NCBI RefSeq assembly: GCF_037153975.1
Contig: NZ_JBBAYJ010000007.1
Coordinates: 62,001 to 126,000 of the forward strand
Direction: 5' to 3'
DNA: 64,000 bases
DNA from: Aquipuribacter sp. SD81
GTDB taxonomy: Bacteria > Actinomycetota > Actinomycetes > Actinomycetales > JBBAYJ01
Below the pieces are notes generated by a model. That model was not told the DNA's origin. It was given only the letters and a program-made list of their open reading frames with translations, and did not search any database. This document shows, one piece after another, positions 1 through 12,620 of the stretch; position 1 is the stretch's first letter, and each line of letters opens with the position of its first letter. The translations under genes and the position numbers were made by a program.

Positions 1-76
1 ACCGGCCCCGACGCTCGTCCGGGGCGGGCGACCGCCCGACCGTCGCTGTCGGACCGCGCCCCTACGGTCACCGGCC

Positions 77-652
77 GTGGGACGCATCCTCTTCGACACC
101 GCCACGAGCATCGACGGCTTCATCGCCGACCCGGACGGCTCCCTCGCCTGGCTCTTCGCCGTCGAGGGGGGCGAGGACCCCGACGAGGCGCTCTTCCCCA
201 GCGGCGCGAGCGTGCTCGTCGAGGGCTCGACGACGTACGAGTGGATCCTCCGCGAGGAGGACGTGCTCGCCCACCCCGAGAAGTGGCAGGGCTTCCACGG
301 CGACCGCCCGACGTTCGTCTTCACCCACCGGGACCTGCCGGTGCCCACCGGTGCCGACGTGCGGTTCGTGCGCGGGCCGGTCGCCGACGTCCTGCCGCGG
401 CTGCGCGAGGCCGCCGGCGACGGCGACATCTGGGTCGTGGGAGGGGGCGACCTCGCCGGTCAGTTCCTCGACGCGGGCGCCCTCGACGAGGTCGCCCTGT
501 CCGTGGCGCCGGTCGCCCTCGGCGGCGGCGCGCCGCTGCTGCCGCGGCGCGTCACCTCCGAGCGGCTCCGGCTGCGCTCCGCCGCCGCCCACGGGCAGTT
601 CGCTCGGCTCGTCTACGAGGTCCGGCCGGCGCACGACGCGCTCAGCCCGTGA
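77..652 (+). CDS. RibD C-terminal / dihydrofolate reductase-like protein
   Basis: A 191-residue protein starting at GTG 77. The opening GRILFDTATSIDGFIADPDG and the later IWVVGGGDLAGQFLDAGALDE segment are typical of the RibD C-terminal (DHFR-like) reductase family, which binds NADPH in a Rossmann-like fold. The true substrate cannot be read from sequence; many stand-alone members are uncharacterised oxidoreductases. A TACGGT hexamer at 63-68 lies 8 nt before the start, so the mRNA may be leaderless. The end overlaps a converging DUF427-like fragment by 11 bp. Confidence 0.85.
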   Translation: MGRILFDTATSIDGFIADPDGSLAWLFAVEGGEDPDEALFPSGASVLVEGSTTYEWILREEDVLAHPEKWQGFHGDRPTFVFTHRDLPVPTGADVRFVRGPVADVLPRLREAAGDGDIWVVGGGDLAGQFLDAGALDEVALSVAPVALGGGAPLLPRRVTSERLRLRSAAAHGQFARLVYEVRPAHDALSP

Positions 653-872
653 CGCGCCCGTCGACCTCGGTCCGTACGCCCCCACCCATGAAGCACACGT
701 GCCCGGGCAGCGGCAGCGCCTCGGGCAGCGGCTCCTCGTAGCCCCACGCGACGTCGGCGGGGCCGCCGACGAGCGAGCGGTACGTCGCGTCGCCCTCGTA
801 CGGGCAGGCGTGGCCGTGGTGCTGTCGCGCGGCCCCTCCGGCGTCGCGAGCGCACGGACGTACGTCGGGCAC
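642..872 (-). pseudogene. DUF427-domain fragment, N-terminally truncated
   Basis: Seventy-six residues from GTG 872. CPYEGDATYRS, VAWGYEEPLPEALPL and GHVCFMGGGV match the C-terminal two thirds of DUF427 proteins. The usual N-terminal strand region is missing. Upstream in frame only a short HLLLLVPDVR-like stretch precedes a stop at 906-908, and the DNA then runs into tandem repeats, so this looks like a decaying remnant. It could still be a short expressed protein. The function of DUF427 is unknown. Confidence 0.45.
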
Positions 873-920
873 GAGCAGCAGCAGGTGGTCGGTGCCGCGG
901 TCGCCTTAACGCTCGGACGT

Positions 921-1074
921 GTCGTGCACGACCACCTGGAGGGGGCGGGTGTCGCCGCTGCCTCACGCACGACCGTGTCGTGCCCGACCGTCTCGTGCGC
1001 GACCCTGTCGGGCGCGACACGGTCGTGCGTGACGCGAGTGGTGCAGCACCTCGCCCCAGGTGGTCGTGCACGAC
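921..1074. repeat. 19-bp perfect inverted repeat flanking the 15-bp array
   Basis: Left arm 921-939 begins GTCGTGCACGACCACC. Right arm 1056-1074 is its exact reverse complement. Each arm also contains the 12-bp self-palindrome GTCGTGCACGAC. The arms bracket the four 15-bp repeats, so the segment could extrude as a cruciform or be a small mobile remnant. Confidence 0.7.
970..1029. repeat. 15-bp tandem repeat, four units
   Basis: Four consecutive 15-bp units (970-984, 985-999, 1000-1014, 1015-1029) vary around CGACCGTGTCGTGCG. They lie between the DUF427 remnant and the mannosyltransferase gene and are not coding on either strand as far as I can see. Confidence 0.75.
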
Positions 1075-1148
1075 CGATCCCTACGACCGATCCCTACGAC
1101 CGGTCCGTACGACCGGTGCCTGCGACCGGCCCGCACGAGCCCGGCCCG
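1071..1148. repeat. 13-bp tandem repeat, about six units
   Basis: Units start at 1071, 1084, 1097, 1110 and 1123, with a degenerate sixth at 1136. The first two are identical (CGACCGATCCCTA). The unit resembles, but is out of register with, the 15-bp repeat just upstream. Together the two arrays fill most of the roughly 300-bp gene-free stretch 873-1175. Confidence 0.8.
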
Positions 1149-1175
1149 ACCGGCCCGGCCGCCGTCACGACCAGG

Positions 1176-2849
1176 TCAGACCCAGCTCGGCCACCACATG
1201 CGCAGGCGCCACTCCGAGGTCGTGATGACCTGCGCCGTCCACACGGGGTAGAAGAACAGCAGGCACGCGACCGCGCCGACGACGACCGCCCCGACGCCGA
1301 CCGCCCCCCACAGGCGCCGGTCCGGCGAGGCGGTCACCGGCCCGAGCAGCAGCCCGAGGGCGTACGTGAGGGCGAGCACGAGGTACGGCACGAAGGCGAC
1401 GGCGTAGAAGTAGAAGATCGTGCGGTCCTGGAAGGCGAACCACGGCAGGTAGCAGGCCGCGAGCGGCACGAGCACCGCCCCGGCCCGCCAGTCGCGACGC
1501 AGCAGCCACGCGAGCAGGCAGACGACGACGGCGATGGTGCCGCCCCACCACACGACCGGGTTGCCGAGCGACGTCACCGCCGAGCTGCAGGCGTCGGCGC
1601 CGCAGCCCTCCAGCCCCTCGTTCTGGCCGCGGTAGTAGAACGACGTCGGCCGGCCCATGACGAGCCACGACCAGGGGTTCGCCATGTACGGGTGCTCGTT
1701 GTCGACCGTGTTGATCGAGCGGTGGAAGTCGTACGCGGAGACGTGGTAGTGCCACAGGCTCGCGAGCGCGTCGGGCAGCCACGGGGTCGCCTCGTCCGGG
1801 TTCTCCGCCGCCCACTGCCGGCTGTACGCGTCCGGCGAGCGGAACCAGCCCGTCCACGACGCCAGGTAGGTGACGAACGCGACCGGGACCAGGGCGAGGA
1901 ACGCGAACCACGAGTCGCGCACGAGCATCCCCGTGAACCAGCGGTCGACCCCGACCGCGCGGCGCGCACCCATGTCCCACAGCACGGTGAGCACGCCGAA
2001 CGCCGCGAGCACGTACAGGCCCGACCACTTGGTCGCGCACGCCGCGCCCAGCGCGACCCCCGCCAGCAGGCGGTAGGGCCGCCAGCCCAGCCACGGCCCG
2101 TACGGGTCGAGCCGTCGGCCGGCCGCGACGGTCTCCGCGACGCGTCGCGCCAGCCGTTCCCGCGCCGCGAAGCGGTCGGCGAGCAGCAGCGCGAAGGCCA
2201 CGAGCACCCAGAAGGCGAGGAAGATGTCGAGCAGGCTCGTGCGCGAGTGCACGATGTGGTGCCCGTCGACCGCGAGCAGCAGCCCCGCGACCCCGCCGAG
2301 CAGCGCCGAGCCGAACAGCGCCCGGGCGACGAGCACGACCAGCACGACCATGAGCACACCGACGACCGCGGCGGACAGCCGCCAGAAGAACGTGTCGTCG
2401 GGGTCCAGGCGCATGCCCGCCGCGATCATCCACTTGCCGAGCGGCGGGTGGACGACGAAGTCCGGGTTGCCGCGGTCGAACACGTCGAGCGTGCCGGAGT
2501 TGAAGAGGTCGTTGGCGTAGGTGTCCGACCAGTCCTCGGGCTTCGGGTCCGGCGGGTCCGGGTCCTCCAGCGCCCGGACCTCGTGCCCGAACAGCAGCAT
2601 CGAGTACGCCTGCTTGACGTAGTACGTCTCGTCGAACACGAGCTCGGCGGGGCGGCCGAGGCCGGGCAGGCGGAGCAGCGCGGCGATGCCGCCCATGACC
2701 GCGGCGACGGCCCACGCCCACCACGCCGGCTCGGGGTGCACGAGGCCGAGGCGCTCGCGCAGCCGCTGCCGCGTCGCCGCGACCGCGCCCGCGTCGTCCC
2801 GCCCGGCCCCCGGACGGCGGTCGAGCACCGTCCCCGTGCTGCTGCTCAC
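1176..2849 (-). CDS. Dolichyl-phosphate-mannose--protein mannosyltransferase family (GT39, Pmt)
   Basis: A 557-residue polytopic membrane protein from GTG 2849. It is predicted to transfer mannose from polyprenyl-phosphate-mannose to secreted proteins at the membrane. The first extracytoplasmic loop carries the family DE pair at D73-E74 (VFDETYYVKQAY), followed by the HPPLGKW motif. Many hydrophobic helices follow, and the length suits actinobacterial Pmt. A TAGCCT -10 on the minus strand (2856-2861) sits 6 nt before the start, suggesting leaderless expression. It is divergent from rsmI with only 60 bp between starts, a pairing common in actinobacteria. Confidence 0.93.
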   Translation of the reverse strand: MSSSTGTVLDRRPGAGRDDAGAVAATRQRLRERLGLVHPEPAWWAWAVAAVMGGIAALLRLPGLGRPAELVFDETYYVKQAYSMLLFGHEVRALEDPDPPDPKPEDWSDTYANDLFNSGTLDVFDRGNPDFVVHPPLGKWMIAAGMRLDPDDTFFWRLSAAVVGVLMVVLVVLVARALFGSALLGGVAGLLLAVDGHHIVHSRTSLLDIFLAFWVLVAFALLLADRFAARERLARRVAETVAAGRRLDPYGPWLGWRPYRLLAGVALGAACATKWSGLYVLAAFGVLTVLWDMGARRAVGVDRWFTGMLVRDSWFAFLALVPVAFVTYLASWTGWFRSPDAYSRQWAAENPDEATPWLPDALASLWHYHVSAYDFHRSINTVDNEHPYMANPWSWLVMGRPTSFYYRGQNEGLEGCGADACSSAVTSLGNPVVWWGGTIAVVVCLLAWLLRRDWRAGAVLVPLAACYLPWFAFQDRTIFYFYAVAFVPYLVLALTYALGLLLGPVTASPDRRLWGAVGVGAVVVGAVACLLFFYPVWTAQVITTSEWRLRMWWPSWV

Positions 2850-2855
2850 GGGCCC

Positions 2856-2903
2856 AGGCTACGGGCGGCTCCCGGTGGCACCGGCGGCTGCGCCGGATAC
2901 CGT
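2856..2903. promoter_or_regulatory. Divergent leaderless promoters, Pmt gene and rsmI
   Basis: On the minus strand, TAGCCT (2856-2861) ends 6 nt before GTG 2849. On the plus strand, TACCGT (2898-2903) ends 6 nt before GTG 2910. Both fit the TANNNT leaderless -10 pattern of actinobacteria. Confidence 0.6.
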
Positions 2904-2909
2904 CGTCGC

Positions 2910-3779
2910 GTGCCCGTCCCGGACGGCCCGTCGACCGGGCGCCTGCTGCTGGCCGCCACCCCCATCGGGGACCCCGACGACGCGAGCGCGCGGCTGCGTC
3001 GCTGGCTCGCGGAGGCCGACGTCGTCGCCGCCGAGGACACCCGCCGCCTGCGCCGGCTCACCGGGGCGCTAGGGGTCGACGTCCGCGGCCGCGTCGTCGC
3101 GCACCACGAGCACAACGAGACCGGCGGCTCCGGCGGCTCGTCCTCGGCGCTGCTGGCGGAGGTGCAGGCCGGCCGCACCGTGCTCGTCGTCACGGACGCC
3201 GGCATGCCGACCGTGTCCGACCCCGGCTACCGAGCCGTCGTCGCCGCGGTCGAGGCGGGCCTGCCCGTCACGGTGCTGCCGGGCCCGAGCGCGGTGCTCG
3301 CGGCGCTCGCGGTGTCCGGTCTGCCGACCGACCGCTTCGCCTTCGACGGGTTCCTGCCCCGCAGGCGCGGCGAGCGTGAGCGCGCCCTCGCCGGTCTCGT
3401 CGCCGAGCAGCGCACCGTCGTCCTCTTCGAGGCGCCCCACCGGCTCGCGGAGATGCTCGACCACGCCGCGGAGGTGCTCGGCGCCACGCGGCGGGCCGCG
3501 GTGTGCCGGGAGCTGACGAAGACCTACGAGGAGGTCCGCCGCGGCACGCTCGCCGAGCTCGCGGCCTGGGCCGGCGCGGCCACCGTGCTCGGCGAGGTCA
3601 CCGTGGTGCTCGCGGGCGCCGTCGTGGAGGCCGCGGAGCCGGCGGACCTCGTCGCGGAGGTGACGGCCCGCGAGGCCGCCGGCCTGCGCCTCAAGGACGC
3701 CGTCGCGGAGGTGGCGTCGCTGCGCGGCGTGCGCAAGAACGCGCTCTACGACGCCGTCCTCGCCGCCCGCCGGGGCTGA
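2910..3779 (+). CDS. rsmI: 16S rRNA (cytidine-1402-2'-O)-methyltransferase RsmI
   Basis: A 289-residue protein. GRLLLAATPIGDPDDAS, AAEDTRRLRRL and VLVVTDAGMPTVSDPG are the classic SAM-dependent tetrapyrrole-methylase-type motifs of RsmI, which methylates C1402 of 16S rRNA. FEAPHRLAEML and ELTKTYEEVRRG are conserved family blocks. I chose GTG 2910 because a TACCGT -10 precedes it by 6 nt and the residues upstream are not conserved in type. GGGGC-TGA-GCCCC (3772-3784) spans the stop codon and may act as a weak terminator. Confidence 0.95.
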   Translation: MPVPDGPSTGRLLLAATPIGDPDDASARLRRWLAEADVVAAEDTRRLRRLTGALGVDVRGRVVAHHEHNETGGSGGSSSALLAEVQAGRTVLVVTDAGMPTVSDPGYRAVVAAVEAGLPVTVLPGPSAVLAALAVSGLPTDRFAFDGFLPRRRGERERALAGLVAEQRTVVLFEAPHRLAEMLDHAAEVLGATRRAAVCRELTKTYEEVRRGTLAELAAWAGAATVLGEVTVVLAGAVVEAAEPADLVAEVTAREAAGLRLKDAVAEVASLRGVRKNALYDAVLAARRG

Positions 3780-3864
3780 GCCCCGCTCGCCCCAGGTTGT
3801 GCGCACGCGCGACGGCGGGGACGGTCGAGGGACTACCCGACCGCGACCCTCGGGGGCTCCCACC

Positions 3865-4701
3865 ATGAACATCGAGAACGAGTACGTGTACGACTTCGTC
3901 TCGTACACGATCGTGTCCCACGTCTTCACCCTCGGCTACGCCGCCATGGCGGCCGGCCTCGTCTTCTTCCTCGTCACCTCCTCCAACAGCCACCCGCGCT
4001 ACCGGCTGTCGTCCGCGCTGTCCGCGGTGGTGATGGTGTCGGCCCTGCTCGAGCTGTACGTCATCTCCCAGCGCTGGACGCAGGCCTTCCGCTGGGACGG
4101 GGAGGCGTTCGTGCAGGCCGAGACCGCCTTCTCCAACGGCTACCGCTACATGAACTGGTCGATCGACGTGCCCGTGCTGCTCACGCAGCTCCTCATCGTC
4201 ATGGGGGTGACGGGTGCGGCGTTCCGGCGCGCGTGGGCGCTGTTCGCGGGCGCGGGCCTGCTCATGGTCTACACCGGCTACGTCGGGCAGTACTACGAGG
4301 TCGAGCGCACCGCCCCGTTCTGGGTGTGGGGCGCCGTCAGCACCGTCTTCTTCCTCGTCATCCTCGTGCTCGTGTACCGCGTGGTCCACGGCAACCTGCC
4401 GCGCCTGCCGGAGAACGCCCGCGGTCTCGCGAAGTCGGTCTGGTGGCTGCTGTTCGTCTCGTGGATGCTCTACCCGGGCGCGTACCTCATGCCGGTCCTC
4501 ATCGACGGGACCGACGGCGTGGTCGCGCGGCAGATCACGTACACGGTCGCCGACATCACGTCCAAGGTCATCTACGGAGTCCTCCTCGCCGTCATCGCGC
4601 GCAAGGTGAGCATCGCCGAGGGCTTCACCGACGCCGTCCCCTCCGACGTCGCGCGGGTGCGCGGCGGCATCACCGAGGTGCAGGCCCCCGGTCGCGTGTG
4701 A
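3865..4701 (+). CDS. Light-driven sodium-pump-type rhodopsin (NDQ motif)
   Basis: A 278-residue seven-helix microbial rhodopsin starting at ATG 3865. Helix C reads RYMNWSIDVPVLLTQ, giving N97, D101 and Q108, the NDQ triad that defines Na+-pumping rhodopsins such as Krokinobacter KR2 (N112, D116, Q123). Helix G has YTVADITSKVIYG with retinal Schiff-base Lys K234 and D230 (KR2 K255, D251); R94 matches KR2 R109. Similarity to KR2 is strong across the protein, including SAVVMVSA and LYPGAYLMP. One difference is E63 in helix B where KR2 has L74. Another is A242 at the KR2 G263 position. No carotenoid cleavage (blh/brp) or carotenoid genes are nearby, so retinal must come from elsewhere or from outside the cell. 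Flanking genes are rsmI and an aminotransferase; no obvious operon. Confidence 0.95.
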   Translation: MNIENEYVYDFVSYTIVSHVFTLGYAAMAAGLVFFLVTSSNSHPRYRLSSALSAVVMVSALLELYVISQRWTQAFRWDGEAFVQAETAFSNGYRYMNWSIDVPVLLTQLLIVMGVTGAAFRRAWALFAGAGLLMVYTGYVGQYYEVERTAPFWVWGAVSTVFFLVILVLVYRVVHGNLPRLPENARGLAKSVWWLLFVSWMLYPGAYLMPVLIDGTDGVVARQITYTVADITSKVIYGVLLAVIARKVSIAEGFTDAVPSDVARVRGGITEVQAPGRV

Positions 4702-4769
4702 GCGGCCACCTGCCGACAGGTGGCCGGCTCGGCCCCGGACGGTTCCCTCGCGGACCCGTCCGGGGCTCC

Positions 4770-4775
4770 TAGGCT
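4770..4775 (+). promoter_or_regulatory. -10 hexamer TAGGCT of the alaC-like gene
   Basis: TAGGCT ends 6 nt before ATG 4782, the spacing of leaderless actinobacterial promoters. Confidence 0.6.
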
Positions 4776-4781
4776 CGGGCG

Positions 4782-5999
4782 ATGGAGTTCCGGCGCATCG
4801 GCGGCCTGCCCCCGTACGTCTTCACGATCATCGACGGGCTCAAGCAGCAGGCCCGCCGGGAGGGACGCGACGTCGTCGACCTCGGCTTCGGCAACCCCGA
4901 CGTGCCGAGCCCGGACCTCGCCGTCGACAAGCTCGCCGAGGCCGCCCGCAACCCGCGCAACCACCGGTACTCCTCCTCGCGCGGGATCCCGCGGCTGCGT
5001 CAGGCCGTCGCCCGCCGCTACCACGACGTCTTCGGGGTCGACCTCGACCCCGAGACGCAGGTGATGAGCGTCATCGGCGCGAAGGAGGGCTTCAGCCACC
5101 TCATGTGGGTGCTGCTGCAGCCCGGCGACTCCGCCCTGGTGCCGCAGCCCAGCTACCCCATCCACATCTGGGGCCCGTACCTCGCCGGCGCGGACGTGCG
5201 GCAGGTGCCGATGGGCACCCCCGACCGCTACGAGGACCAGGCCAACCCCTTCCGGCACGGCCGCGCCTACGTCGACAACGTCATGACGCAGTGGGAGCAC
5301 GGCTGGCCGCGCCCTCGGGTCGTCGTGCTGTCGTTCCCCCACAACCCCACCGGCGCCGTCGTCGAGCAGGCCGACCTGCAGCGCCTGGTGGACTGGGCGA
5401 GGGACAGGGACGTCGTGCTCGTCCACGACTTCGCGTACGCCGACGTCGCCTTCGACGGCTGGCGGCCCCCGTCGGTGCTGGCGTGCGAGGGCGGGACCGA
5501 CGTGGCCGTCGAGCTGTACTCGATGACGAAGTCCTTCTCGATGGCCGGGTGGCGCGTCGCGTTCCTCGTCGGGCGCGCCGACGTCGTCGCCGCGCTCGCC
5601 AAGCTCAAGAGCTACCTCGACTACGGCACGTTCCAGCCCATCCAGATCGCGGCGACCGTCACGCTCACCGACGCCGCCGAGTACCCGCAGCACGTGAGCG
5701 AGGTGTACCGCTCGCGCCGCGACGCGCTGTGCGACGGGCTCGCCCGGATCGGCTGGCGCGTGCCCCGCCCGCGCGGGTCGATGTTCGTGTGGGCGCCCGT
5801 CCCGCCCGCCTACCGCGAGGAGGGCAGCGTCGCCTTCGCCACCCGCCTCGTCACCGACTGCGACGTGGCGGTGGCGCCGGGGGTCGGCTTCGGCCCGGAC
5901 GGCGACGGGCACGTGCGCTTCGCCCTCATCGAGAACGAGCAGCGCATCGCCCAGGCGGTCCGGCAGCTGCGGCGGGGCCTTCCCGCCCTGTCGGGTTGA
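4782..5999 (+). CDS. alaC: Class I/II aminotransferase, AlaC-like (glutamate-pyruvate)
   Basis: A 405-residue fold-type I PLP enzyme. The PLP lysine is K250 in YSMTKSFSMAGWR. FPHNPTGAVV (185-194) and the final HVRFALIENEQRIAQAVRQL are family blocks. The start IGGLPPYVFTIIDGLKQQAR and SYPIHIWG closely follow E. coli AlaC, which makes alanine from pyruvate and glutamate. Related LL-diaminopimelate or methionine aminotransferases are possible alternatives. It is a single gene with its own leaderless-type promoter. Confidence 0.85.
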   Translation: MEFRRIGGLPPYVFTIIDGLKQQARREGRDVVDLGFGNPDVPSPDLAVDKLAEAARNPRNHRYSSSRGIPRLRQAVARRYHDVFGVDLDPETQVMSVIGAKEGFSHLMWVLLQPGDSALVPQPSYPIHIWGPYLAGADVRQVPMGTPDRYEDQANPFRHGRAYVDNVMTQWEHGWPRPRVVVLSFPHNPTGAVVEQADLQRLVDWARDRDVVLVHDFAYADVAFDGWRPPSVLACEGGTDVAVELYSMTKSFSMAGWRVAFLVGRADVVAALAKLKSYLDYGTFQPIQIAATVTLTDAAEYPQHVSEVYRSRRDALCDGLARIGWRVPRPRGSMFVWAPVPPAYREEGSVAFATRLVTDCDVAVAPGVGFGPDGDGHVRFALIENEQRIAQAVRQLRRGLPALSG

Positions 6000-6078
6000 G
6001 TGGCGTCGTGCACGGCGTCCGGGTGCGGAACGTGAGGAACTACTGACAGCGCGTACCCGTGGGTGACATGGTGATCAC

Positions 6079-7092
6079 GTGCGAGGCGACCCCGTCCTCC
6101 GGACCGTCCGCGTCCTGGTCCTCGTGCTGTGGCCGACGGTCGCCGTCTGGCTGCTGCCCGGACAGCACCGTGACGGGCCCGGTCTCGTCCTGGCCGCCGT
6201 CACCCTCGCGGTCTTCAGCCTCGCCGCCCTCCTGCTCCTGCTCTCCGGCTCCCACGTGCACCGGGTCGTCCCGGCGTGCCTCACGCTGTTCTCCGCCGCG
6301 GCGGTGGTCGGGGCCCTCGCGGGGACCGAGCCCGAGATGGCCCTCCTCGTCCCGCTCTTCCTCGGTGTGCTCAGCACCGTCGCCGCGGCGAGGCTCGGCC
6401 GGCGAGGTACGTGGTGGCAGATCGCGGTGTCGGCGGTCGGCTCGCTCGTCTGCGTCGCGTACGTCGCGGACGACCCCGTGAAGACCCTCGGGGCGTCGGT
6501 CGCGGTGGTCGCCGGCGTCGCCGCACCCGCCGTCGCGATCCTGCGGGTGAGGACGCAGCTGGACGCGGCGCACGCGCGCGAGCGGCGCCTCGCGCTCACC
6601 GACTCCCTCACCGGCGCGCTCAACCGGCGCGGGCTGTTCGAGGGACTCGACGAGGTGTGCGACGCGGCCGCCGACGCGGTCGTCGTCGTGGCCCTCGACC
6701 TCGACGGCTTCAAGCACCTCAACGACACCTTCGGCCACGCGGTCGGCGACGACGTGCTCGTCGGCCTCGTGCGGGAGCTGCACGCGCTGGGACGGCAGCC
6801 GGTGAGCGGGCGGCCGCTGCTCGTCGCCCGGCTGGGGGGCGAGGAGTTCCTCGTCGTCGCACCCTCGACCGGCGTCCCGACCGCCCTGCTCGCGGAGTGC
6901 GTGCGGTCGGCCACGGTCGCGGTGCGGCTGCCCGACGGCTCGCGCCCGACCGTCAGCGTGGGGGCGGTGGAGGCGCTGCCCCCCGCGGCGGTGGAGGACC
7001 GCCGCGCGTGGCTGCTGCGGCGCATGGACGAGGCCGACCGGCTCATGTACGAGGCCAAGCGCTCCGGCGGGGACCGCTCCCTCGTCGGCTGA
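6079..7092 (+). CDS. Membrane GGDEF protein, putative diguanylate cyclase
   Basis: A 337-residue protein with about five hydrophobic N-terminal helices (roughly 10-155) and a C-terminal GGDEF domain. The active-site motif is GGEEF at 253-257, and LTGALNRRG and [14 protein letters not shown] are intact, so c-di-GMP synthesis is plausible. The product-inhibition I-site RxxD is absent (RPLL is found instead), suggesting no classical feedback control. There is no PAS or GAF sensor, so any signal would be sensed by the membrane part. Start GTG 6079 is tentative; no clear ribosome site is visible. Confidence 0.88.
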
Positions 7093-7114
7093 CAGGACCG
7101 GCGGCGCCGCCACC

Positions 7115-7120
7115 TAGGCT
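7115..7120 (+). promoter_or_regulatory. -10 hexamer TAGGCT of metG
   Basis: TAGGCT ends 7 nt before ATG 7128; leaderless-type spacing. Confidence 0.6.
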
Positions 7121-7127
7121 GGCGAGC

Positions 7128-8927
7128 ATGACCCACGTGCTCTCGGCGGTGGCGTGGCCGTACGCCAACGGCCCCCGCCACATCGGCCACGTCGCCGGTT
7201 TCGGCGTCCCCTCCGACGTGTTCAGCCGGTACATGCGCATGGCGGGCCACGACGTGCTCATGGTGTCCGGCACCGACGAGCACGGGACGCCGATCCTCGT
7301 GCAGGCCGAGAAGGAGGGCGTCAGCCCCCAGGAGCTCGCCGACCGCTACAACCGCGTCATCGTCGAGGACCTGGCCGCGCTCGGGCTGTCGTACGACCTC
7401 TTCACCCGCACGAGCACCCGCAACCACCACCAGGTCGTGCAGACGCTGTTCCGCGCCGTCGCTGACAACGGCTACATCGTCGCCCGGACGCAGCTCGGCG
7501 CGGTGAGCCCGCGGACCGGTCGCACGCTGCCGGACCGCTACATCGAGGGCACGTGCCCCATCTGCGGCTACCCCTCCGCCCGCGGCGACCAGTGCGACAA
7601 CTGCGGCAACCAGCTCGACCCGCAGGACCTGCTCGAGCCGCGCAGCCGCATCGACGGCGAGGTGCCGGAGTTCGTCGAGACCGAGCACCTGTTCCTCGAC
7701 CTGCCGGCGCTCGCCGACGCCCTCGGGCAGTGGCTGCACGAGGTCGAGCGGGACGGCACGTGGCGGCCCAACGTCATCCGCTTCAGCCTCAACCTGCTGG
7801 AGGACGTGCGGCCCCGCGCCATCACCCGCGACCTCGACTGGGGCATCCGGGTGCCGCTGGAGGGCTGGGAGGACAACCCGAACAAGCGGATCTACGTGTG
7901 GTTCGACGCGGTCGTCGGCTACCTGTCCGCGTCGGTGGAGTGGGCGCGCCGGCTCGGCGACCCCGAGCGCTGGCGCGAGTGGTGGAACGACCCCGAGGCC
8001 CTGTCGTACTACTTCATGGGCAAGGACAACATCACCTTCCACTCCCAGATCTGGCCCGCCGAGCTCCTCGCGCACGACGGGCGGGGCGCCCGCGGTGGGC
8101 AGCAGGGCCCGTTCGGCGACCTGCAGCTGCCGACGGAGGTCGTCTCGAGCGAGTTCCTCACCATGGAGGGCCGGCAGTTCAGCTCCTCCCGCGGTGTCGT
8201 CATCTACGTGCGCGACGTGCTCGAGCGCTACCAGCCCGACGCGCTGCGCTACTTCATCTGCGCGGCCGGCCCGGAGACCGCCGACGCGGACTTCACGTGG
8301 GCGGAGTTCGTCCGGCGCACCAACACCGAGCTCGTGGCCGGCTGGGGCAACCTCGTCAACCGGACGGCGAGCCTCATCGCGAAGAACGTCGGCTCGGTCC
8401 CCGAGGCGGGCGCGCTCGAGCCCGTCGACACCGCGCTCCTCGACACCGTCGAGGCCGCCTTCGGCACCGTCGGCGGGCTGCTGCGCACCCACCGGCAGAA
8501 GGCGGCGCTCGCCGAGGCGATGCGCGCGGTCGGCGAGGTGAACGCGTACATCTCCGAGACCGCGCCCTTCAAGCTGACCACGAGCGACCCGGAGCGGATG
8601 CGGACGATCCTCCACGTCGCGGCGCAGTGCGTGAGCGACTGCAACACGCTGCTCGCGCCGTTCCTGCCCCACTCGGCGCAGAAGGTCCACGAGACGTTCG
8701 GGCGCACCGGCGTCTTCGCGCCCGTGCCGGAGGTGCGCGAGGTCGACGACCTCGACGGCGGGGCGCCGTACCCCGTGCTCACGGGCGACTACACGTCGAT
8801 GCGCGGCACCTGGCACCGCGTGCCGGTCGTTCCGGGTACGCCCGTCGCCAAGCCGACGCCGGTGTTCACCAAGCTCGACGACTCGGTCGTGGAGACGGAG
8901 CTCGCGCGCCTGCGCGGCGAGGCCTGA
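7128..8927 (+). CDS. metG: Methionyl-tRNA synthetase
   Basis: A 599-residue class I synthetase that charges tRNA-Met. HIGH is at 18-21 and the KMSKS-equivalent FSSSRG near residue 350. A zinc knuckle with Cys 143, 146, 156 and 159 lies in the connective domain. There is no C-terminal EMAP/tRNA-binding extension. The FSSSRG variant and this length fit the actinobacterial form. It stands upstream of a 141-bp palindrome and tatD, a common metG-tatD order. Confidence 0.97.
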
Positions 8928-8984
8928 CCGGCCCGCCGGGCGCCGGGGCGCCGCGCGCCGCGGGCGGTACAGGGGGTCCGCACA

Positions 8985-9125
8985 CTCACGACGAGGGCTG
9001 GCCCACGGGGCGCGACACGCCGGTGGCCGCGTCCGGGACCCAGCACTCGTGCCGAGGCGACGAGTGCTGGGTCCTGCGGCCCTGTCGCGGCGTGTCGGAG
9101 CGCTGGGCCCAGCCCTCGTCGTGAG
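8985..9125. repeat. 141-bp symmetric imperfect palindrome
   Basis: Three pairs of perfect arms share one centre (coordinate sums all 18110): 8985-9000 with 9110-9125 (16 bp), 9013-9022 with 9088-9097 (10 bp), and 9036-9050 with 9060-9074 (15 bp, GGACCCAGCACTCGT). The central loop is 9 nt. It fills much of the gene-free stretch 8928-9235. It could be a MITE-like element, a bidirectional terminator or a cruciform. A 12-bp direct repeat follows at 9154-9165 and 9166-9177. Confidence 0.8.
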
Positions 9126-9222
9126 CGCCCGGGACCCCCTTGCTGCGTCAGGCGGGGGTCGGAACGGGGGTCGGAACGGCGCCGACCGCTCCGCCCCGGC
9201 GCGGCCCGGACCGGGTGCTGGC

Positions 9223-9228
9223 TAGCCT
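9223..9228 (+). promoter_or_regulatory. -10 hexamer TAGCCT of tatD
   Basis: TAGCCT ends 7 nt before GTG 9236; this spacing decided the start. Confidence 0.6.
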
Positions 9229-9235
9229 CGGTCGC

Positions 9236-10162
9236 GTGCCGCTGCGACCCATCCGCTCCCGCGACGCGACGAGCGAGGCCGACGGACGCGAGCGCGACCG
9301 GACCGCCCCGCCGCCGCCGGAGCCGCTGCCGCTCGACGTGCCGGACAACCACACGCACCTCGACGTCGCCGACGGGCAGGAGCGCAGCGTCGAGGACCTC
9401 CTCGGTCTCGCCCGTGCCGCCGGGGTGGGCCGAGCGGTGCAGATCGGCTGCGACCTCGAGGCGGCGCGCTGGACGCGGGAGCTGCTCGACGCCCAGCACC
9501 CGGGACCCGACGGGGTGCTGCCGCTGCTGGGCGGAGTCGCGATCCACCCGAACGAGGCGGCGGCGCTCGACGACGCCGGCCTCGACGCCGCGCTGGCGGA
9601 AGTCGAGGCGCTGCTCGACCACCCCCGCATGCGGGTGGTGGGGGAGACCGGGCTCGACCACTTCCGGACCCCGCCGGAGGGCCGCGCCCAGCAGGAGGAG
9701 TCGTTCCGGCGCCACATCGACCTCGCGAGGCGCACGGGCCTCGCGCTGCAGGTGCACGACCGCGACGCGCACGACGACGTCGTCCGGGTCCTGCTCGACG
9801 AGGGGGCCCCGGAGCGCACGGTGTTCCACTGCTTCTCCGGCGACGTCGCGCTGGCCCGCACCGCCGCCGAGCACGGCTGGTACTGCTCCTTCGCCGGCGT
9901 CCTCACCTTCCGCAACGCGGCGGCCCTGCGCGAGGCGTGCGCGGTGCTGCCGAGCGAGCTGCTGCTCGTGGAGACCGACGCGCCGTTCCTCACCCCGCAC
10001 CCGTACCGCGGCCGGCCGAACGCCTCCTACCTCATGCCGCACACGGTGCGCGCGATGGCGGAGGCCCGGGGCGCCGACCTCGTCGACCTGTGCGCGACCC
10101 TCGTCGCGAACAGCGAGCGCGTGTACGGCTCGTGGGGGGACCCGGCGACGAACCCCCTCTGA
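9236..10162 (+). CDS. tatD: TatD family metal-dependent hydrolase
   Basis: A 308-residue TIM-barrel hydrolase. The metal ligands are visible: HTHLD near the start, GETGLDHFR, QVHDRDAH, FHCFSG and the final ETDAPFLTP aspartate. Family members act as deoxyribonucleases or D-aminoacyl-tRNA deacylase-like enzymes. I chose GTG 9236 because the TAGCCT hexamer lies 7 nt upstream. This leaves a 50-residue polar extension before the catalytic HTH segment. An earlier start near 9140 is possible but would cover the promoter. Confidence 0.92.
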   Translation: MPLRPIRSRDATSEADGRERDRTAPPPPEPLPLDVPDNHTHLDVADGQERSVEDLLGLARAAGVGRAVQIGCDLEAARWTRELLDAQHPGPDGVLPLLGGVAIHPNEAAALDDAGLDAALAEVEALLDHPRMRVVGETGLDHFRTPPEGRAQQEESFRRHIDLARRTGLALQVHDRDAHDDVVRVLLDEGAPERTVFHCFSGDVALARTAAEHGWYCSFAGVLTFRNAAALREACAVLPSELLLVETDAPFLTPHPYRGRPNASYLMPHTVRAMAEARGADLVDLCATLVANSERVYGSWGDPATNPL

Positions 10163-10252
10163 CCTGCGGGGACGTCGGAGCGGAGGGCACCGGAGGGCTG
10201 CGCGGCGACCTGTGGGACATGTCACAGAGACGCCGGCGGGTTTCGGGTTTAG

Positions 10253-10268
10253 GTCACGATCCGGTTAC
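10253..10268. promoter_or_regulatory. Putative MtrA box upstream of rpf
   Basis: GTCAC-GATCCG-GTTAC is a direct repeat of GTNAC with 6-nt spacing, the form bound by the actinobacterial response regulator MtrA, which controls cell-wall hydrolase and rpf genes. Another GTCACAG lies at 10221. It sits about 125 bp upstream of the rpf start. No other gene start lies between them. Confidence 0.45.
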
Positions 10269-10393
10269 GGTCGGCGCGGTAGCCGGAACCGACCCCTGCG
10301 GACCTCTCCGTCCGCCCGCAGCAGAGCGGGCCGGGGCATCGCCCCGCCCGCGAGCGTCGTCGGCATCCGGACAGCACTCACAGGTGGACTGCC

Positions 10394-11689
10394 TTGACCC
10401 TCAGCACTGCTGCCTCGCGCCTCGCGAGCCGCGTCTCCTCCGCCCTCCGTCCCTCCTCGCCGCGGCGCCGCGTCCTGCCGGTCGTCCTCGCCGCCGGGCT
10501 CGTGCTCGCCGGCGGCGCCGGCGCAGCCGGCTACGCCGTCCTCGACCGGACCGTCACCCTCGAGGTCGACGGCCAGGCGCAGGACGTCCGCATCCTCGGC
10601 AGCGAGGTGAGCGACGTGCTCGCCGCCGCCGGTGTCGAGGTCGACGAGCGCGACCTCGTCTCGCCCGCGATCGGCGAGACCGTCGCCGACGGCGACCAGG
10701 TCGTCGTGCGGTACGCCCGCCAGCTGACCGTCGCCGACCCCGCCGGGGACGAGCGCACGTACTGGACGACCGAGCTGACCGTCGACGACGCGCTCGCGGC
10801 CATCGGCCTGCGCCACGCCGACGCGTGGCTGTCGACGTCCCGCTCCGCCTCGATCGGGCGCTCGGGTCTGTCGTTGACGATGAGCGTGCCCAAGAACCTC
10901 ACCGTGATCGCCGACGGCGAGACCCGGGCCGTCACGTCCGCCGCCCCCACCGTCGGCGACCTGCTCGAGGAGCTCGGCCTCACCGTCGGCGAGCTGGACC
11001 GCCTCAACCCGGCGCCGGAGGACGTCCTCGTGGAGGGCCGGAAGGTCACAATCGAGCGCGTCGTGGTGGAGGACGTCGTCGAGAGCGTCGAGCTCGAGCA
11101 CGGCTCGCGCACCGTGGAGTCCGACGACGTCTACGAGGGCGAGACCGAGGTCGTCGAGGAGGGCAGCCCCGGCGAGGAGCGCGTGACGTACCGCGTCGTC
11201 CTGGTGGACGGCGACGAGGAGACCCGCGAGGAGGTCGCGCGCGAGGTCGTCACCGAGCCCGTGGACCGCGTCGTCGCCGAGGGCACGAAGCAGCGCCCGG
11301 CGCCGGAGCCCGTCCGCGCGGCGGCCAGCAGCTCCTCGAGCCGCTCCTCCGGCTCCTCGTCGGGCTCCTCCTCCGGCGGTTCCTCCGGGTCCTCCGGCTC
11401 CTCTGGCTCCTCCGGCGGCTCGGCCCCCGCGCCGGTGGGCAGCGACGTCGACTCCCTCAACTGGGCGGCGCTCGCGCAGTGCGAGTCCGGTGGCAGCCCG
11501 ACCATCGTGTCGGGCAACGGCCTGTACCACGGCCTGTACCAGTTCAGCGTGGCCACGTGGCAGTCCGTCGGCGGATCGGGCCTGCCGAGCCAGGCGTCGG
11601 CCTCCGAGCAGACCGCGCGCGCCAAGGCCCTGTACGAGCGTGCCGGGGTCGGCCAGTGGCCGCACTGCGGCCCGCGTCTGTACAGCTGA
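10394..11689 (+). CDS. Resuscitation-promoting factor (RpfB-type: DUF348, G5, Rpf)
   Basis: A 431-residue secreted or membrane-anchored muralytic enzyme. A hydrophobic anchor at about 27-48 is followed by DUF348 repeats (roughly 50-210) and a G5 domain (about 215-300). A Ser/Gly linker (315-348) leads to a C-terminal Rpf transglycosylase domain. The catalytic Glu is E364 in AQCESGG, and C363 and C425 can form the conserved disulfide. Rpf enzymes cleave peptidoglycan and help dormant cells resume growth. The TTG start has an AGGTGG-like ribosome site. It heads the rpf-rsmA-ispE-ABC-F gene row and is probably MtrA-controlled (site at 10253). Confidence 0.94.
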   Translation: MTLSTAASRLASRVSSALRPSSPRRRVLPVVLAAGLVLAGGAGAAGYAVLDRTVTLEVDGQAQDVRILGSEVSDVLAAAGVEVDERDLVSPAIGETVADGDQVVVRYARQLTVADPAGDERTYWTTELTVDDALAAIGLRHADAWLSTSRSASIGRSGLSLTMSVPKNLTVIADGETRAVTSAAPTVGDLLEELGLTVGELDRLNPAPEDVLVEGRKVTIERVVVEDVVESVELEHGSRTVESDDVYEGETEVVEEGSPGEERVTYRVVLVDGDEETREEVAREVVTEPVDRVVAEGTKQRPAPEPVRAAASSSSSRSSGSSSGSSSGGSSGSSGSSGSSGGSAPAPVGSDVDSLNWAALAQCESGGSPTIVSGNGLYHGLYQFSVATWQSVGGSGLPSQASASEQTARAKALYERAGVGQWPHCGPRLYS

Positions 11690-11735
11690 GCGGCACGTCC
11701 TGACCGCGTCCGGCGACGACGGCCCCGGCCCCCTC

Positions 11736-12620
11736 GTGGGGCTCGGGGCCGTCGACGTGCGCGCCCTCGCGACGCGGCACGGCGTCGCGCCGACGAAGAG
11801 CAAGGGGCAGAACTTCGTCGTCGACCCGGGCACGGTCACGCGCATCGTCCGGCTGGCGGGCGTCGGCCCCGGGGACACGGTCCTCGAGGTCGGCCCGGGC
11901 CTCGGGTCGCTCACGGTGCCGCTGCTGTCCAGCGGGGCGCGCGTGGTCGCCGTCGAGCTCGACGAGCGGCTGGCCGCGGCCCTGCCCGGCACGGTCGCCG
12001 AGCACCTGCCGGGTGCGGTCGACCGGCTCCACGTCGTGCGGGGCGACGCGACCGCCGTCGCCGCGGCCGACCTGCCGCTCCCACCGGACGCCCTGGTGGC
12101 GAACCTGCCGTACAACGTCGCCGTCCCCATCCTGCTCGGGGTGCTCCGGGCGGTGCCGAGCGTGCGCTCCGGGGTCGTCATGGTGCAGTCGGAGGTCGCC
12201 GACCGGCTGTGCGCCACCCCCGGCGGCCGGGTCTACGGCGTGCCCTCGGTGAAGCTCGCGTGGTACGCCGCGGCGCGCCGGGTCGGCTCGGTGGCACCGA
12301 CGGTCTTCTGGCCGGTGCCGCGCGTCGACTCCGGCCTGGTCGGCTTCGAGCGCCGCGAGCCGCCCGCGGCCGAGGCGCCCCGCGAGGACGTCTTCGCCGT
12401 CGTCGACACCGCCTTCGCGCAGCGGCGCAAGACGCTGCGGCAGTCGCTCGCCCCGCTCGCGGGGTCGGCGGCCGCCGCGGAGGCCGCGCTCCTCGCGGCG
12501 GGCGTCGACCCGCGCGAGCGGGCCGAACGGCTCGACGTCACGGCCTTCGCGGCCGTCGCCGACGCGCTGCGCCGTGGGCGGGCCGCGTTCCGGGGCGCGC
12601 TGCAGGAGGACAGCCCCTAG
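11736..12620 (+). CDS. rsmA: 16S rRNA (adenine-1518/1519-N6)-dimethyltransferase
   Basis: About 294 residues. It dimethylates two adjacent adenines near the 3' end of 16S rRNA. GQNFVVDP, VLEVGPGLGSLT (SAM binding) and the catalytic NLPYNVA motif are intact. The C-terminal segment AFAQRRKTLRQSL is the family helix. GTG 11736 puts the protein start at the usual LGAVDVRALATRHGVAPTK position. In-frame starts further upstream would overlap rpf and are less likely. The gene is followed 10 bp later by ispE. Confidence 0.93.
   Translation: MGLGAVDVRALATRHGVAPTKSKGQNFVVDPGTVTRIVRLAGVGPGDTVLEVGPGLGSLTVPLLSSGARVVAVELDERLAAALPGTVAEHLPGAVDRLHVVRGDATAVAAADLPLPPDALVANLPYNVAVPILLGVLRAVPSVRSGVVMVQSEVADRLCATPGGRVYGVPSVKLAWYAAARRVGSVAPTVFWPVPRVDSGLVGFERREPPAAEAPREDVFAVVDTAFAQRRKTLRQSLAPLAGSAAAAEAALLAAGVDPRERAERLDVTAFAAVADALRRGRAAFRGALQEDSP

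Follow-up and report, generated by a model that had tools for sequence, protein, structure and literature searches.

Two questions are raised by the rhodopsin gene at positions 3865-4701 of the window, as we call the whole 64,000-nucleotide stretch of Aquipuribacter sp. SD81 DNA analyzed here: which ion its product would move, and how the gene came to lie where it does. Our comparisons support the reading, in which we place high confidence, that the gene encodes a retinal-binding, light-driven outward Na+ pump of the NDQ type, that this pump belongs to the glutamate-bearing Subgroup 2, and that it was gained laterally. We infer transport itself, the ion, its direction, the pH behavior and the pentameric assembly of the pump by analogy with studied relatives.

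Key residues and predicted fold

Translation of the window yielded an intact open reading frame on the + strand, running from ATG to TGA with no internal stops and encoding 278 amino acids. The protein matched the Bac_rhodopsin Pfam family (E=1.3e-41), and its nearest solved relatives were IaNaR (E=2.5e-67), ErNaR (4.1e-66) and KR2 (6.7e-63), values that exclude a chance match. Residue equivalences were taken from alignment to the solved KR2, IaNaR and ErNaR chains and from a set of 83 NDQ rows. In this alignment, R94, N97, D101, Q108, D230 and K234 correspond to KR2 R109, N112, D116, Q123, D251 and K255, respectively, and the R-N-D-Q-D-K set is complete in the window protein. More specifically, the helix-C motif (4153..4188, + strand) comprises N97 (AAC, 4153-4155), D101 (GAC, 4165-4167) and Q108 (CAG, 4186-4188), with the second counterion D230 (GAC, 4552-4554) and the retinal-binding lysine K234 (AAG, 4564-4566) following at 4552..4566 on the same strand. 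E63, an extra helix-B carboxylate encoded by GAG at 4051..4053 (+ strand), aligns with KR2 L74 and ErNaR E64, and A242 aligns with KR2 G263. An earlier note on this DNA had placed the gene, numbered its product and named these residues from the letters alone; its reading frame proved exact, its key residues agreed with alignment to all three solved pumps, and its ErNaR-like extra glutamate was confirmed against KR2, ErNaR and the 83-row set.

Comparison across the 83 NDQ rows further showed that the protein retains the functional residues (R94, N97, W98, D101, Q108, E145, R222, D230, S233 and K234) and also H19, the counterpart of KR2 H30. At this KR2 His30 position, all 19 actinomycete rows carry His, and Gly, Ser or Ala is found in all 13 Acidimicrobiia rows (among loci L042-L056). 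Phe34 (codon at 3964-3966, + strand) is private to the window protein, the same position (KR2 Tyr45) being Tyr in 82/82 other NDQ rows. Two further identities were considered and rejected: an NTQ chloride pump, since the middle motif position is Asp101 and not Thr, and a DTE proton pump of the xanthorhodopsin/actinorhodopsin type, since the motif reads N-D-Q and the order's 18 DTE rows are 28-35% identical to the window protein.

We also built an AlphaFold2 model from 26 rows (the window protein and its relative loci). Its seven long helices form a microbial rhodopsin fold (mean pLDDT 88.5, pTM 0.83), with residues 258-278 as a low-confidence tail. Foldseek ranked KR2 and ErNaR first (TM 0.86), and VIA-align ranked NTQ chloride pumps first (Z up to 35.5), with ErNaR at 34.9 and KR2 at 34.2. 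As the VIA-align scores are nearly equal for Cl- and Na+ pumps, we read the ion from the residues and the tree rather than from the fold.

Placement among NDQ rhodopsins and the helix-B glutamate

In the sections of Podoliak et al. 2024 that deal with these pumps (PMC11006869), the clade is defined by the R-N-D-Q-D-K residue set and NDQ rhodopsins are divided by the helix-B Glu, the Glu group being Subgroup 2, represented among studied pumps by ErNaR and SrNaR. The same sections describe D102 as absent or replaced in Subgroup 2, give Leu68 at Q78 in ErNaR, and present the subgroup with structures and electrophysiology (PMC11006869).

A species-genome collection was scanned with a four-row alignment, 200 relatives were confirmed and the best 80 retained. 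Of these best 80 of 200, the 18 nearest, with identities of 64-75%, belong to actinomycetes (Modestobacter, Blastococcus, an uncultured Pseudokineococcus, Micromonospora and Verrucosispora), and the remainder are spread over Acidimicrobiia, Bacteroidota, Cyanobacteriota, Chloroflexota, Pseudomonadota and others. We then computed a maximum-likelihood tree of 91 rows, consisting of 83 NDQ rows (window, ErNaR, IaNaR and KR2 included) and 8 DTE rows as outgroup. Rows omitted from it were L001, which is the window, L004, a duplicate of L028 in position and protein, the 31-aa fragment L096 and 10 of the 18 DTE rows; some branches of the tree are long, and Bellilinea (L052) was flagged as possibly misplaced. 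The 83 NDQ rows split from the 8 DTE rows with support of 100/100. The window protein is the first branch of a nine-row set with Pseudokineococcus, Blastococcus and Modestobacter (100/96), which is nested in a broader actinomycete set of 19 rows, Micromonospora and Verrucosispora included (100/99), and 13 Acidimicrobiia rows stand next to this set (90/87). The same 19-row actinomycete set was recovered after the columns holding residues 63 and 67 had been removed.

The earlier note had offered the phylogeny as a test of its sodium-pump assignment, and the protein falls inside the NDQ clade, also without those two columns; together with E63, this placement bears out its description of the gene as a high-GC actinobacterial member of the ErNaR type with an extra helix-B Glu. 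Its remark that DTE pumps are commoner in actinobacteria likewise agrees with the order as sampled, in which 19/396 genomes hold 20 rhodopsin loci, 18 of them DTE and 2 NDQ. On these comparisons, the window gene is a further member of the already described Glu subtype of NDQ pumps.

The position of E63 is Glu in 41, Leu in 32 and Ile in 10 of the 83 NDQ rows, counts that are skewed toward the kin of the window protein by the retention of the best 80 of 200 relatives and are not a census. Glu occupies it in 19/19 actinomycete and 13/13 Acidimicrobiia rows. At the KR2 Q78 position, Gln is present in 42/42 Leu/Ile rows, and Leu, Ile or one Thr in 41/41 Glu rows; the window protein has Ile67 here, the end of the codon stretch begun by Glu63 (4051-4065, + strand), and Thr87 at KR2 D102. 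This full co-variation of Glu74 with non-Gln78 (KR2 numbering) across the 83 rows could be the sign of another exit route for sodium. The KR2 D102 position is not always changed in Glu rows, as Asp is found in 5/13 Acidimicrobiia rows and in 1/9 other Glu rows. With the full alignment, a single branch separates the 41 Glu rows from all others (one change, support 79/81). When the two columns holding residues 63 and 67 were removed, two Glu changes were obtained, and a single clade was 3.3 log-likelihood units lower (p-AU 0.423) and not rejected. The Glu rows are therefore not a firm clade, neither one nor two origins being rejected.

The earlier note had also pointed to A242 in place of KR2 G263 as a change that may alter ion selectivity. 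The substitution itself was correct, but Ala is the usual residue of near relatives (8 Ala and 1 Ser among the 9 rows of its own clade; 12/13 Acidimicrobiia rows), so we rejected Ala242 as a selectivity marker and do not expect unusual selectivity from it. The position is Gly in 10/10 Micromonosporaceae rows and Thr, Gly, Ser or Ala in the Leu/Ile rows.

Probable insertion site and the history of rhodopsins in the genus

Upstream of the rhodopsin gene lies rsmI (2895..3779, + strand, start codon uncertain), encoding a 16S rRNA methyltransferase identified by its TP_methylase and RsmI_C Pfam domains and by congener comparison, and downstream lies a class I/II aminotransferase gene (4782..5999, + strand), identified by domain match and congener comparison and followed by a GGDEF gene and then metG. 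We aligned this region to that of the congener G002. Window positions 1175-3772 and 4769-7109 align to G002 stretches only 12 bases apart, and 3773..4768 is without alignment, a stretch that we read as an acquired cassette; in G002, the rsmI stop and the aminotransferase start are separated by 18 nt. In both congeners (G001 and G002), and likewise in four Pseudokineococcus genus-group genomes, the two flanking genes are direct neighbors with no rhodopsin between them. Thus, the NDQ gene looks like a single-gene insertion of ~1 kb, gained laterally between rsmI and the aminotransferase gene. The rhodopsin gene has a GC content of 0.677 versus 0.717-0.784 in the five neighboring genes tested, and its GC3 (0.982) is like that of its neighbors.

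The distribution of NDQ genes led us to reject vertical descent within the order. The only two NDQ-level matches in the 396 genomes of the order are in this genome (G000) and in G058, the Pseudokineococcus genome of L028 (identical position and protein) and one of the four just named; three genomes of its genus gave no rhodopsin match. In an even draw of the class, the sole NDQ-level match among 394 genomes was G000 itself, and other matches reached at most 36% identity.

Two strong hairpins, both likely terminators by RNA fold, follow the rhodopsin stop on the + strand, one directly after it with a 9-bp stem (4704..4725) and the other, which is GC-rich, at 4731..4767. The 87-nt stretch holding both folds at -61 kcal/mol (z -5.3; 0/200 shuffles as good). 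A T-tract terminator scan listed neither of them, and its single terminator-like match falls inside the rhodopsin gene. Given the two hairpins, the rhodopsin gene is probably a separate transcription unit. A simple sigma-70 scan, a poor test in high-GC actinobacteria, found no promoter before it. Directly before the aminotransferase start is a TAGGCT box, the same in G002 and TACGCT in G001, which we take to be the leaderless promoter of that gene. An Rfam scan of window positions 1-12000 gave no match.

Whole-genome search of G000 revealed one rhodopsin, the NDQ gene of the window. The congeners G001 and G002 have one rhodopsin match each, of the DTE type, and these two genes are 82% identical and occupy the same locus. 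In G000, the flanks of that locus (contig C22; L133 at about 5800-5833) are joined with ~32 bases between them, and the DTE match is absent. A tree of the aminotransferase and RsmI, rooted on the four genomes of the G058 genus, grouped G000 with G002 (99/98) and left G001 outside. As the DTE locus is nevertheless common to G001 and G002, the DTE pump would most simply be ancestral to the genus and have been lost in G000. We consider it somewhat more probable than its alternatives taken together that one pump was exchanged for another within the genus: the DTE pump was lost, an acid-tolerant, Glu-bearing Na+ pump was gained as a single gene, the retinal pathway was retained, and the transported ion changed from H+ to Na+. 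History could also have run in reverse, with the DTE gene gained separately by G001 and G002 and the NDQ gene lost from the congeners, and the comparison covers only three genus genomes. We regard this as unlikely, given that G002 groups with G000 while sharing a single DTE locus with G001, and that rsmI and the aminotransferase gene adjoin not only in both congeners but also in the four Pseudokineococcus genus-group genomes.

Retinal supply and proposed sodium transport

An exchange of pumps on a retained retinal pathway turns on the origin of the retinal-forming enzyme. A Blh gene (PF15461) is present in G000, G001 and G002, and in G000 it also scores above the TIGR03753 cut-off. The G000 blh gene lies on another contig than the rhodopsin gene, in the same neighborhood as in G002. 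Its product is 64% identical to that of G002 and 34-38% identical to its counterparts at five places in Modestobacter, Blastococcus and Micromonospora (four loci), and the G058 stretch L118 yielded no match to it at 1e-5. The shared neighborhood and 64% identity with G002 indicate that blh did not come with the new pump, and Blh would thus be resident rather than co-acquired. In 16/18 actinomycete loci (L021-L038), the NDQ gene has a blh-type gene in its flanking DNA, the exceptions being L022 and L028. At L022 (Modestobacter sp. VKM Ac-2984), positions 6800-6871 hold a 24-residue blh match only, as if the gene had been lost or replaced, and a Blh match is found elsewhere in that genome. At L021 (Modestobacter sp. 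VKM Ac-2985), there are two rhodopsin genes (2480-4434 and 5935-7837), one DTE and one NDQ, each with its own blh-type ORF directly behind it, all within ~5.4 kb. PF15461 had no match in the two Acidimicrobiia genomes searched (G409 and G410).

Upstream carotenoid steps have candidates in G000. A phytoene synthase candidate was found by PF00494, below every NCBIfam cut-off listed. A lycopene cyclase candidate is a full-length PF05834 match, present in 3/3 genus genomes (the remaining PF05834 rows are partial); since this family also matches 10/14 control genomes, the cyclase call is one at family level. The NCBIfam cyclase model scored 81 bits on G000 against a cut-off of 209.5, and PF18916 lycopene cyclase was found in 0/3 genus genomes. 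With both candidates under the NCBIfam cut-offs, carotenoid supply for retinal is probable rather than settled.

These data bear on whether the gene works at all. It might be decaying or silent, a recent lateral arrival that is unexpressed or pigmentless: it is a single-gene insertion absent from the congeners, the sigma-70 scan (for what it is worth at high GC) gave no promoter-like site, blh is not adjacent, and the lycopene cyclase assignment is not firm. Against this stand the open frame, the intact functional sites, a GC3 like that of the neighbors, the strong hairpins after the stop and the presence of a Blh gene, and we consider silence or decay very improbable.

In the mechanism that we propose instead for a working sodium pump, retinal from the resident pathway (Blh with the probable phytoene synthase and lycopene cyclase) would be isomerized by light on K234, and the Schiff-base proton would pass to D101. 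Na+ would enter past the region of N97 and Q108, bind near the Schiff base, and be released outward past R94, E145 and R222. E63 would lie next to D101 and, through a hydrogen bond, hold it in the deprotonated state, as shown for E64 of ErNaR; with D101 deprotonated, the pump would stay sodium-selective at low pH. For ErNaR itself, a very short E64-D105 hydrogen bond is reported, along with a nearly absent sensitivity to pH and proton currents that are negligible (PMC11006869). Alternatively, the NDQ rhodopsin might work mainly as a proton pump in this host, using Na+ only when it is abundant. According to a review, NaR turns to pumping protons when both Na+ and Li+ are lacking (PMC9728251), and the congeners run a DTE pump on the same retinal background. 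However, the Na+-pump residues are kept in the window protein, and proton currents of ErNaR are given as negligible even at pH 5 without Na+ in the corresponding passages (PMC11006869). We hold a mainly proton-pumping role to be improbable and retain sodium as the predicted ion.

Comparison with known pumps shows how far these analogies reach. ErNaR (Erythrobacter sp. HL-111; PDB 8qle, 8qlf, 8qqz, 8qr0) is 46% identical to the window protein and shares with it the NDQ motif, Glu at KR2 L74, a non-Gln residue at Q78, the lack of Asp at the D102 position, and a similar N-terminal sequence (NIENEYVYDF / SIENFLAYDF). In contrast, ErNaR belongs to a proteobacterial branch, its R19 is Ser18 in the window protein, its 8-residue loop insert is missing there, and at the KR2 G263 position it has Ser instead of Ala. 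R19, a positive residue near the interprotomer site, is highlighted in the legend of Fig. 1 of Podoliak et al., where it is not stated as defining (PMC11006869). The Ser18 replacement and the missing insert make ErNaR an imperfect proxy for the window pump. KR2 (Subgroup 1; PDB 4xtl) is likewise 46% identical, with the full RNDQDK set and a fold matching at TM 0.86, but its Leu74, Gln78 and Asp102 are Glu63, Ile67 and Thr87 in the window protein. IaNaR (PDB 8jh0), of Subgroup 1 by its Leu, has the highest identity (51%) of the three solved pumps aligned, yet carries Leu at Glu63, Gln at Ile67 and Asp at Thr87.

The Modestobacter and Blastococcus (Geodermatophilaceae) proteins of L021-L027 are 72-75% identical over the best segment, with the same motif, the Glu, and Ala at G263; unlike in the window genome, a full blh-type gene directly follows the rhodopsin in 6/7 of these loci (not L022). 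Tarlachkov et al., writing on Geodermatophilaceae rhodopsins in 2020, reportedly described NDQ rhodopsins in this family. Loci L021-L024 and L026 bear VKM strain names, and a 2023 announcement reports microbial rhodopsin genes in 11 Geodermatophilaceae strains (PMC10190537). The main text of Podoliak et al. contains no word beginning with "actino" (PMC11006869), and we found no functional study of the actinomycete Glu branch in the open-licence literature.

As a family member, the window protein is ordinary; of more interest is that, within one genus, a proton pump seems to have given way to a sodium pump while the retinal enzyme stayed in place. The actinomycete branch offers a test ground for the link proposed by Podoliak et al. 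between the extra Glu and pH-independent, sodium-selective pumping in proteins without R19 and the D102 site. In addition, close species with a common Blh and different pumps would constitute a natural experiment, in which the circumstances under which a light-driven Na+ gradient pays, as opposed to an H+ gradient, become testable.
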